Assembly (NCBI RefSeq): GCF_001613505.1
Contig: NZ_BDCM01000003.1
Coordinates: forward strand, 186,001-250,000
Origin: Nocardia mikamii NBRC 108933
GTDB taxonomy: Bacteria > Actinomycetota > Actinomycetes > Mycobacteriales > Mycobacteriaceae
Direction of reading: 5' to 3'
DNA: 64,000 nucleotides
The notes below the pieces were generated by a model. That model made no database searches. It was given only the letters and a program-made list of their open reading frames with translations, and had not been told where the DNA came from. A program made the translations under genes and the position numbers. This document shows positions 4,291-9,326 of this stretch, in pieces (within the stretch, counting starts at the first letter, position 1; each line of letters starts with the position of its first letter).

Positions 4291-5433
4291 CTACCGGACG
4301 ATGGTGTCCCAACCGGGCACGGATTCCGCGGTGCGCGGCGCCGGTCCGGTGTAGATCGCGGCCGGGCGCACCAGCTTGCCCAGCTGCTTCTGCTCGAGGA
4401 TGTGCGCACACCAGCCCGCGGTGCGGCCACAGGTGAACATGGCCGGCATCATGTGCGCCGGCACCTCGGCGAAGTCCAGGATCACGGCGGCCCAGAACTC
4501 GACGTTGGTCTCGATGGCACGGTCGGGGCGACGTTCGCGCAGTTCGGCCAGCGCGGCCTGCTCGAGCGCGGCGGCGACCTCGTAGCGCGGGGCGTCCAGT
4601 CGCTTCGCGGTGGCGCGCAGCACCCGGGCGCGCGGGTCCTCGGCCCGGTAGACCCGGTGGCCGAAGCCCATGAGCTTCTCCTTGCGATCGAGGATGCCCT
4701 TCACCAGAGCGCGTGCGTCGCCGGTCTTTTCGACCTCTTCGATCATCGGCAGCACCCGCGCGGGGGCACCGCCGTGCAGCGGGCCGGACATGGCGCCGAT
4801 CGCGCCGGAGAGGCTGGCGGCCACATCGGCGCCGGTCGAGGCGATGACACGCGCGGTGAACGTGGAGGCGTTCATACCGTGTTCGGCTGCCGACACCCAG
4901 TAGGCGTCGATGGCCTCGACGTGGCGCGGATCCGGGTCGCCCTTCCACCGCTTCATGAAGCGTTCGGTGATCGTGCTCGCCTCGTCGATCTCCCTCTGCG
5001 GCACGGCCGGCTGGTAGATACCGCGCGCGGACTGCGCGACATAGGACAGGGCCATCACCGACGCGCGCGCGAGGTTCTCGCGGGCGGTGGCGTCGTCGAT
5101 GTCCAGCAGCGGCTGGTAGCCCCAGATCGGGGCGAGCATCGCCAGACCGGCCTGCACGTCGACGCGCACGTCGCCGGTGTGCACCGGCAGCGGGAACGGC
5201 TCGGCGGGCGGCAGTCCCTGCCCGAAGCGGCCGTCGACCAGCAGCGCCCAGACGTCACCGAAGGTGACGTGGTTACCGACGAGGTCCTCGATGTCGACCC
5301 CGCGGTAGCGCAGCGCGCCGCCGTCCTTGTCGGGCTCGGCGATATCGGTGGTGAACGCCACCACGCCTTCCAGGCCACTGACGAAATCGGGAGGTACGGC
5401 CGGACCAGTAGGAGCCGCAGCGCTGGTAGTCAT
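4291..5433 (-). CDS. citA: Citrate synthase 2 (CitA type)
   Basis: This 380-residue enzyme condenses acetyl-CoA (or possibly propionyl-CoA) with oxaloacetate and corresponds to Rv0889c by sequence pattern. It shows [15 protein letters not shown] with the catalytic His220, and MGFGHRVYR. Where most citrate synthases have the catalytic aspartate (NVDF), this protein has NVEFW, with Glu312; the second citrate synthase here, at 7971, keeps NVDF. ATG 5433 is preceded by AAGGAG at good spacing. The gene is divergent from pdxH across a 173-base region with a tandem repeat and a palindrome. Confidence 0.93.
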
Positions 5434-5485
5434 GTTGTGACTCTCCTTGCAAATCGGGCCGCACGATCTGTGGGCGGCCACGCGA

Positions 5486-5534
5486 TGGTGCTGTCCCGGC
5501 TCGGCCGGGGTGGTGCTGTCCCGGCTCGGCCGGG
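5486..5534. repeat. Tandem duplication of a 25-bp unit
   Basis: Bases 5486-5510 are repeated at 5511-5534 without mismatches over 24 bases; the core is GCTGTCCCGGCTCGGCCGGG. Each copy contains the CCGG-rich dyad CCCGGCTCGGCCGGG. The repeat lies in the citA 5' region, 53 bases above its start. Confidence 0.9.
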
Positions 5535-5577
5535 CGCGGCCGTATGCCACTCCGGCCGATCACCTGCAACCTTATCC

Positions 5578-5593: not shown

Positions 5594-5606
5594 TAACGTT
5601 TGGACC
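5594..5606 (+). promoter_or_regulatory. Leaderless -10 element of pdxH
   Basis: TAACGT at 5594-5599 followed by seven bases and ATG 5607 predicts a leaderless pdxH mRNA. Confidence 0.55.
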
Positions 5607-6380
5607 ATGCGCGAGGAGCAGAATTCACCGGGCTCGGCGGGGGGCGAATCGGGTCTTCCGACCGCGAATTCATCGACTTTGCCGGACCGCTTCGGGGCCG
5701 TACCCCGCGTCGATGTCGACATCGCCGCGATGCGGGCCGAATACGGCGGTGATCCGGACCTGACCGAGAGCTGGCCGGCCGACGGGTGGGAACCGTTGCT
5801 GCGCAACTGGATCGAACTCGCCACCAACGCCGGTATCACCGAACCCAACGCCATGGTGCTGGCGACGGTCGAGCTCACCGACGCCGGCCCGCGCCCCGCC
5901 TCACGCACGGTCCTGTGCAAGGGAGTGTCCGCGGAGGGTGTGACTTTCTACACGAATTACGACTCCGCGAAGGGTGATCAACTCCACGCGGTGCCGTATG
6001 CGTCGGCCACCTTCGCCTGGCCCAAGGTCGGCCGGCAGGTGACGCTGCGAGGCCCGGTGGACCAGGTCTCCACGGAGGTGACCACGGCGTACTGGCGCTC
6101 ACGCCCGCGCAATTCGCAACTGGGCGCGTGGGCCTCGCACCAATCGCGCACGGTGGCCTCGCGGGAGGATCTGGATCGGGCATTGGCCGACGTCACGGCC
6201 CGTTTCGACGGCGTGGAACAGATTCCGGTTCCGGCCAATTGGGGCGGCTACATCCTGCGTCCGGAACAGATCGAATTCTGGCAGGGCCGGCGCAGCCGGC
6301 TGCACAACCGCATCCGGATGACGCTGCCGGACGGACCGACCGCGATCGGCTCCGCCCGCATCGAACGCCTGCAACCCTGA
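5607..6380 (+). CDS. pdxH: Pyridoxamine 5'-phosphate oxidase
   Basis: PdxH makes pyridoxal 5'-phosphate from PNP or PMP with FMN and oxygen. The 257-residue product begins with about 30 disordered residues, then [13 protein letters not shown], the FMN-binding SRTVLCKGV and [13 protein letters not shown] segments, and [17 protein letters not shown]-like core. [17 protein letters not shown] matches the family block, and the C-terminus contains the [13 protein letters not shown] signature of the C-terminal PNPOx domain. ATG 5607 is fixed by the leaderless -10. PLP is the cofactor of SerC and DapC, also in this window, but there is no operon link. Confidence 0.95.
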
Positions 6381-6438: not shown

Positions 6439-6450
6439 TATATTCATGGG
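6439..6450 (+). promoter_or_regulatory. -10 element driving a leaderless mini-ORF before the MFS gene
   Basis: TATATT at 6439-6444 is a near-consensus -10. Six bases later lies ATG 6451 of a 15-codon ORF, so the transcript would start at that ATG. Confidence 0.5.
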
Positions 6451-6498
6451 ATGATTTCTCGAAGACGCCGCGCCATGGTGAAAGTCCGGCCGTGGTGA
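6451..6498 (+). CDS. Putative leader peptide overlapping the MFS transporter start
   Basis: ATG 6451 opens a 15-residue ORF (MISRRRRAMVKVRPW) that ends in TGA at 6496-6498, overlapping the first codons of the transporter, which starts at GTG 6492. The leaderless -10 is placed exactly for this ATG and not for the transporter. The arrangement implies translational coupling or ribosome-dependent control of the pump. The Arg-rich run could be a stalling determinant. This is an inference from position only; no homologue is known to me. Confidence 0.4.
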   Translation: MISRRRRAMVKVRPW

Positions 6499-7787
6499 AG
6501 GTGCTCGCCGATGTCGCACCGCTGCGCGACATCGATTTCCGGCGCCTGTGGGTCACCAATATCGTCACCGTCATCGGAGCCCAGCTCTCGGTGGTCGCGG
6601 TCCCGCAGCAGATCTACCAAATCACCGGCAGCTCCGGATATGTCGGCCTGGCCGGGATCTTCGGCCTGGTGCCGCTGATCGTCTTCGGCCTGTGGGGCGG
6701 CGCGGTCGCCGATGTCATGGACCGGCGGACCCTGTTGCTCATCACCAGCACCGGCACCGGGCTGACCTCGGTGGCGTTCTGGCTGCAGGCCGCGGCCGGG
6801 GTGAACAACGTCTGGCTGGTCCTCGGACTCTTCGCGGTGCAACAGGCGTTCTTCGCGATGAATCAGCCGACCCGCGCTGCCATCATTCCGCGTCTGCTGC
6901 CGGGTGATCTGCTCCCGGCCGCCAACTCGCTGAACATGACCGTCATGCAGTTCGGCGCCATCGCCGGGCCCGTACTCGCGGGCGCGCTGATTCCGGTGAC
7001 CGGACTGTCGATGTTGTATCTGATCGACTCCATCGCCCTGCTGGCCACATTGTGGGCGGTGTGGCGGCTGCCCGCCGTCCCGCCGACCGGAGTGGCCCGC
7101 AAGGCCGGATTGAGCACGGTCGTCGAGGGTTTCAGCTATCTGTCCACCCAGCCCATCCTGCTGGCCTCCTTCGCCGTCGACATCATCGCGATGGTGTTCG
7201 GCATGCCGCGGGCGCTGTTCCCGCAGATGGCGCACGACACCTTCGGCGATCCGGTGACCGGCGGTGTGGCATTGGGCCTGCTCTTCGCCGCGATGTCGGC
7301 GGGTGCGGTCGCCGGCGGCGTGTTCTCGGGATGGCTCGGCCACGTGCGGCGCCAGGGCATGGCCGTGGTCGTGTGCATCGCGCTGTGGGGTGTGGCGATG
7401 ATCGGCTTCGGACTCGCCGTCGGCGCCACCGGCCATCAGCTGAGCGTCGGGGTCGGACTGTGGATCGCCCTGGCCTGCTTGGCCTTCGGCGGCGCGGTCG
7501 ACATGTTCTCCGCCGCGCTGCGAACCAGCATGTTGCAGGAGGTGGCGACCGACGAGATGCGCGGCCGGCTGCAGGGCGTGTTCACCGTGGTCGTCGCAGG
7601 CGGGCCCCGCATCGGTGATGTTGCCCACGGTTTCACCGCGGCGGCCATGGGTACCGCCGTGGCGGCGGCCGGTGGTGGGGTCCTGGTGGTGATCGGCGTG
7701 CTGATCGCCGCGGCCGTCTTCCCCGCCTTCGTCCGCTACCGCGTTCCCCGCGTCCACGCCGAGATTCCGGCCGATCAGCACTCGTGA
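6492..7787 (+). CDS. MFS transporter, DHA3 drug-efflux type
   Basis: The 431-residue protein has about 12 hydrophobic segments. It belongs to the MFS_3/DHA3 group (enterobactin exporter and macrolide-efflux relatives), judging by the N-terminal LRDIDFRRLWVTNIVTVIG, the loop motif GGAVADVMDRRTLL between TM2 and TM3, and RGRLQGVFTVVVAGGPRIGD in the C-terminal half. It is predicted to be a proton-driven exporter; the substrate is unknown. GTG 6492 is the likely start, with GTG 6495 or 6501 as alternatives; GGTGAAAG 10 bases upstream is a weak ribosome site inside the leader ORF. The next gene, gltA, begins 183 bases downstream. Confidence 0.85.
   Translation: MVKVLADVAPLRDIDFRRLWVTNIVTVIGAQLSVVAVPQQIYQITGSSGYVGLAGIFGLVPLIVFGLWGGAVADVMDRRTLLLITSTGTGLTSVAFWLQAAAGVNNVWLVLGLFAVQQAFFAMNQPTRAAIIPRLLPGDLLPAANSLNMTVMQFGAIAGPVLAGALIPVTGLSMLYLIDSIALLATLWAVWRLPAVPPTGVARKAGLSTVVEGFSYLSTQPILLASFAVDIIAMVFGMPRALFPQMAHDTFGDPVTGGVALGLLFAAMSAGAVAGGVFSGWLGHVRRQGMAVVVCIALWGVAMIGFGLAVGATGHQLSVGVGLWIALACLAFGGAVDMFSAALRTSMLQEVATDEMRGRLQGVFTVVVAGGPRIGDVAHGFTAAAMGTAVAAAGGGVLVVIGVLIAAAVFPAFVRYRVPRVHAEIPADQHS

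Positions 7788-7970: not shown

Positions 7971-9326
<1,356 letters not shown>

Follow-up and report, generated by a model that had tools for sequence, protein, structure and literature searches.

A leaderless mini-ORF probably hands ribosomes over to an MFS transporter gene in the Nocardia nova complex

How are ribosomes brought to a gene whose start codon overlaps the stop of a very short upstream ORF and is preceded by no strong ribosome binding site? This question is raised by an MFS transporter gene in a member of the N. nova complex, with N. cerradoensis as the nearest named relative. The first-pass annotation had proposed a translated leader that couples or gates the synthesis of an efflux pump, in the manner of antibiotic-inducible resistance genes. 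Comparing the locus across the genus Nocardia, we consider it likely that a leaderless mini-ORF delivers ribosomes to the transporter by termination-reinitiation and that this arrangement arose once by promoter relocation.

Gene order and start codon of the transporter

The window, i.e., the whole stretch of 64,000 nucleotides that was analysed, contains in this order pdxH, a gap of 70 nt, the mini-ORF, the transporter gene and a citrate synthase gene (Table 1). Direct reading and translation confirmed the mini-ORF of 15 codons, from ATG 6451-6453 to TGA 6496-6498, as well as the annotated TATATT (6439-6444) six bases ahead of its ATG. The start of pdxH is also of the leaderless type (TAACGT, N7, ATG 5607; window 5594-5609). 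Two citrate synthase family genes, at 4291-5550 on the minus strand and at 7971-9326 on the plus strand, flank the pdxH-transporter pair; one of them is an NCBIfam citrate synthase equivalog, the other belongs to the PRK12350 subfamily.

Table 1. Features of the pdxH-transporter locus, in positions of the window
Feature	Position	Strand	Basis or remark
pdxH (pyridoxamine 5'-phosphate oxidase)	5607..6380	+	NCBIfam pdxH above cut-off; upstream neighbour
Predicted -10 element TATATT	6439..6444	+	6 nt before ATG 6451; invariant in 13/13 nova-complex loci
Imperfectly palindromic element TCATGGGATGA	6444..6454	+	includes the mini-ORF ATG; comparison across Nocardia loci
Leaderless mini-ORF, MISRRRRAMVKVRPW and stop	6451..6498	+	translation; transcription likewise predicted to start at A 6451
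Start module repeated imperfectly in tandem, ATGGTGAAAGTCCGGCC followed by GTGGTGAAGGTGCTCGC	6475..6508	+	direct reading and nova-group sequences
AAGTCC, 7 nt before GTG 6495	6482..6487	+	site of the transporter's own TANNNT -10 in other Nocardia; lost here
GTGA junction, transporter start GTG over mini-ORF stop TGA	6495..6498	+	GTG in all nova-complex loci
MFS transporter (PF05977/PF07690; distant EntS-like)	6495..7787	+	Pfam, NCBIfam, conserved start codon

The transporter had been read from GTG 6492, which gave a 7-base overlap with the mini-ORF. Among the Nocardia loci compared, codon 6492 is GTC, ATC or ATG in the relatives, and GTG 6495 is common to the whole nova complex and to nearly all Nocardia. 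Because GTG 6495 is the sole start codon present in all relatives, the overlap is the 4-base GTGA and not a 7-base one, and the start of the transporter has likely to be revised from 6492 to 6495. The mini-ORF was also considered as an N-terminal extension of the transporter, and this was rejected, as it lies in a different frame in every member.

Pfam placed the protein in the MFS (PF05977 and PF07690, E-values of 4.8e-31 and 5.3e-29). The best NCBIfam match was EntS with 193.8 bits, below the cut-off of 324 bits. Compared with the curated NCBIfam models of antibiotic efflux MFS pumps (Mef, Tap, Tet(V)), the transporter scored far under all cut-offs (50.8 against 675 for Mef(A), 32 against 625 for Tap). 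Judged from these matches, it is a distant EntS/MFS_3-type protein.

An invariant predicted -10 element and ATG in the N. nova complex

The arrangement TATATT-N6-ATG was present in 13 of 13 nova-complex loci and nowhere else in the genus. The 15-mer TATATTCATGGGATG occurred in exactly one copy per genome in 12 of the 150 genomes searched within the genus and was absent from the other 138; the 12 genomes are those whose transporters are at least 92% identical. All 15 bases of this anchor are invariant among six architectures that otherwise have little in common here. Within the window, to which this count applies, only 1 of 40 gene-like ORFs, the transporter, is preceded by a TANNNT-N6/7-RTG mini-ORF ending at its start. 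By these comparisons the arrangement is more than chance, and the hexamer ending exactly 6 nt before the ATG in the 13 loci was taken as a proxy for a leaderless start. A sigma-70 consensus scan of the sequence found no -35 consensus upstream, and it reports no promoter because it demands a -35.

Probable relocation of the promoter within the genus

Of 69 distinct loci from other Nocardia, 66 have a TANNNT hexamer (e.g., TACGCT, TAATGT, TACCCT, TACTGT) that ends exactly 6 or 7 nt before the GTG of the transporter, compared with a control rate of 0.0017 at shifted positions. As a 5'-terminal ATG or GTG was reported to be sufficient for translation in mycobacteria (PMC4633059), a leaderless transporter gene is predicted for these other Nocardia. 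The proximal -10 was found in none of the 13 nova-complex loci. Two of them have kept the 56-nt spacing between the upstream ATG and the GTG, and there the proximal hexamer reads CCGGTC or CCGCTC, which by its position is a decayed former -10.

The upstream site behaves in the opposite way. Among 24 other Nocardia loci with the same spacing, the upstream hexamer is TGTAAT, TGCAAT or TGTATT in 14, and a TANNNT with a spacing of N5-8 occurs in none. TGTATT, one G-to-A change away from TATATT, occurs in the sister clade (L019, L027). In the transporter tree all nova-complex rows form one clade (support 100/100) nested among Nocardia with a proximal promoter, and therefore one promoter relocation suffices. 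Assuming that both hexamers, the proximal and the upstream one, act as promoters, as we infer, the promoter of the N. nova group seems to have shifted upstream by about 50 bases compared to the rest of the genus. Promoter use aside, the comparison shows a single origin: in the ancestor shared by the nova-complex loci, a latent upstream TGTAWT became a good -10, TATATT, and the transporter's own -10 decayed.

The block around the mini-ORF ATG may be older than the upstream -10. In the 24 other Nocardia loci lacking the upstream -10, GGGATG precedes the transporter GTG by exactly 56 nt, so that the TCATGGGATGA element, the extended motif of which is present in a single copy in this genome, may be an older site at the DNA level; the block may also still serve that older purpose. 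Taken further, TCATGGGATGA could be the binding site of a regulator with the ATG and TATATT as by-products, the transporter being read through from pdxH or transcribed from an unrecognised promoter. The conserved GGGATG fits this explanation, and so does the overlap of the transporter with the pdxH stop in many Rhodococcus. However, it leaves unexplained why TATATT appears exactly where the proximal -10 vanishes, and with exactly the spacing of leaderless starts, and we regard it as very improbable.

Translation from the ATG at -56 was also considered for the other Nocardia. Frames from it are open to the GTGA in 22 of 24 loci, which carries no weight as evidence for translation, because the distance is fixed, the loci come from related species and a frame would be open by chance with a probability of about 0.8. 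Other palindromes were seen upstream of the transporter GTG in two clades. In the N. wallacei/transvalensis clade (L040, L041, L042, L016) a perfect inverted repeat, TCACCGA-AAA-TCGGTGA, follows ATGGGATGA and looks operator-like; in the N. abscessus/beijingensis clade (L044, L050, L058, L060, L062 and relatives) a different conserved palindrome, GTGAGAATTCTCGCG, occupies the corresponding place. A third arrangement of the gene pair was observed in many Rhodococcus and Prescottella, where the transporter begins on the stop codon of pdxH or directly next to it, as GTGA or TGATG (L070, L074, L081, L083, L084, L091, L076, L078, L093).

The stop-start junction and the mini-ORF frame

The mini-ORF has 15 codons in the window, cerradoensis, aobensis, kruczakiae and BSTN01 types, 19 in two further species, 21 in the veterana type and 42 in the vermiculata type. 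It stops on the GTGA of the transporter in 9 of the 13 nova-complex loci. The ATG-to-GTG distances in these loci are 44, 56, 62 and 125 nt, each of which leaves a remainder of 2 when divided by 3. Measured against the 56-nt spacing shared with the outgroup, they show net changes in length of -12, +6 and +69, every one a multiple of three. Since these represent about three independent changes, with a chance of about 1/27 of preserving the frame (openness not counted), the preserved frame is only suggestive evidence for coupling. Openness by chance is 0.56-0.81 per ORF, and about 0.56 for the 42-codon version, which stays open.

The remaining four loci, all of the N. nova group, break the exact GTGA overlap. 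Their ATG-to-GTG distance is 76 nt, within which the stop-start module ATGGTGA has been duplicated (17 nt); the mini-ORF stops at the first of the two copies, which leaves 13 nt to the transporter start. The window group keeps a diverged form of this duplication and, compared with the nova group, a 32-nt deletion puts its mini-ORF frame onto the second copy of the module.

In agreement with the annotated lack of a strong ribosome site, the best anti-Shine-Dalgarno duplex at the transporter start involves a distant GGUG and reaches -5.8 kcal/mol; three related lineages have little or no Shine-Dalgarno sequence (0.1 to -2.9 kcal/mol). Given this weak match and practically none in the three relatives, ribosomes would most simply reach the transporter by way of the mini-ORF. 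The promoter could also be real and the mini-ORF incidental, with a 44-nt 5' UTR and direct initiation at GTG 6495. A weak GGUGAAAG upstream in the cerradoensis and nova groups would allow this, and the peptide shows no purifying selection (see below). Nevertheless, the three lineages practically without a Shine-Dalgarno sequence retain both the ATG and the open frame to the GTGA, and given the sufficiency of a 5'-terminal ATG reported for mycobacteria the ORF would be translated anyway. An incidental mini-ORF is accordingly judged unlikely.

The peptide and the leader RNA

As to the conservation of the mini-ORF, its ATG was found in all 13 loci, whereas its peptide is not conserved. Within the two closest groups 7 codons vary, all of them nonsynonymously and none synonymously; between two further species six codons change the residue and four are silent. 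A coding signature in the GC content of the mini-ORF codon positions was absent (0.65/0.81/0.67). Most members have an arginine-rich stretch following codon 3 (MISRRR, MIPRRR, MIDRRR, MIHRRR); it is interrupted in some (R4G, R6H and others; SRGR in the vermiculata-like type) and overlaps DNA that is conserved in any case. The peptide is, as far as these sequence comparisons reach, under no visible constraint, and a conserved stalling peptide was not found among the nova-complex members.

Compared with shuffled sequences, folding of the leader and intergenic RNA was not unusual (z of -1.04 to -0.18, about -1 for the leader), and nothing in it was conserved. Occlusion of the transporter start by RNA beyond that of the shuffles was not seen, its accessibility being near the shuffle mean in most members, and the members share no fold that could provide alternative structures masking this start. 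Only the cerradoensis and nova groups have the window hairpin, in which the duplicated CCATGG modules pair. An Rfam search of the leader returned no family, only a chance match well below the gathering score.

Antibiotic-sensing uORFs such as the erm-type leaders place a short ORF ahead of the regulated gene. Applied to this locus, ribosome stalling on the RRRR run, with its rare-looking codons CGA AGA, would alter access to the transporter start in response to an antibiotic or an amino acid. The arginine-rich stretch recurring after codon 3 and the exporter-like MFS protein encoded downstream are what such a leader would lead one to expect. Against it stand the drifting peptide with its broken arginine run, the lack of alternative or conserved structures, the small space that a 44-nt leader leaves for an attenuator, and a transporter matching no antibiotic-efflux equivalog. 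We give a responsive leader hardly any credence; the antibiotic-inducible part of the first-pass annotation found no support. Of the alternatives "couples or gates", coupling is favoured by the invariant -10 and ATG, the lost proximal -10 and the kept junction, and gating found no support in the peptide or in RNA structure.

Proposed hand-over and its relation to known systems

The mini-ORF probably hands the ribosome over to the transporter as follows. RNA polymerase would take TATATT as the -10 and start at A 6451, so that the mRNA opens with AUG. A 70S ribosome would load on this 5'-terminal AUG without a Shine-Dalgarno sequence, read 15 codons and terminate at UGA 6496-6498. The terminating ribosome, or its 30S subunit, would then reinitiate at the overlapping GUG 6495 and make the transporter, the peptide being a disposable device for ribosome delivery.

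Coupled leaderless small ORFs have been documented experimentally in M. smegmatis and M. tuberculosis (Shell et al., 2015; PMC4633059). RTGA linkage is over-represented there, and conservation concerns this linkage and not the peptide. The Nocardia locus resembles them in its predicted ATG-initial transcript, in a short out-of-frame ORF, in the RTGA overlap, found in the window and in 9 of 13 loci, and in the conservation of architecture over peptide (lengths of 15-42 codons around an invariant promoter-ATG unit). It differs in genus and gene, in the four members with a 13-nt gap, and in that the start is predicted here. In M. tuberculosis, translation of PPE2 depends on termination-reinitiation at AUGA after uPPE2 (PMC11260477). 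Both systems share an out-of-frame upstream ORF, an NUGA overlap and a downstream gene without a Shine-Dalgarno sequence; uPPE2 has a Shine-Dalgarno sequence of its own and a B12 riboswitch above it, whereas the Nocardia mini-ORF has neither riboswitch nor structured leader. The antibiotic-sensing uORF of TopAI-YjhQ in E. coli (PMC12121999) is likewise a short ORF before a regulated gene, and is set apart from the Nocardia mini-ORF, which lacks a conserved stalling peptide and alternative structures. Short ORFs that only deliver ribosomes have been discussed as a possibly widespread mechanism (PMC12548453). The locus appears to be a clear new case of an arrangement known from actinobacteria and not an antibiotic switch; on the evidence at hand it would be a mistake to annotate 6451-6498 as a functional peptide or as a drug-sensing leader.

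More tentatively, and with some doubt on our side, a relocation of the promoter by nearly a single base change may have turned a leaderless gene into one coupled to a leaderless uORF, with selection keeping the hand-over through indels while the peptide drifted freely. If true, this would be the birth of a coupled uORF to which a date can be given. Mycobacteria commonly have leaderless coupled uORFs, but the origin of these is seldom visible; here the outgroup state of a leaderless transporter is preserved in relatives, so that the origin can be dated to one clade. The orthologous transporter is found in three states within one bacterial family: starting at the pdxH stop in many Rhodococcus, with its own leaderless promoter in most Nocardia, and behind a mini-ORF with GTGA in the N. 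nova complex. This series could be used to measure what coupling costs or gains in expression.
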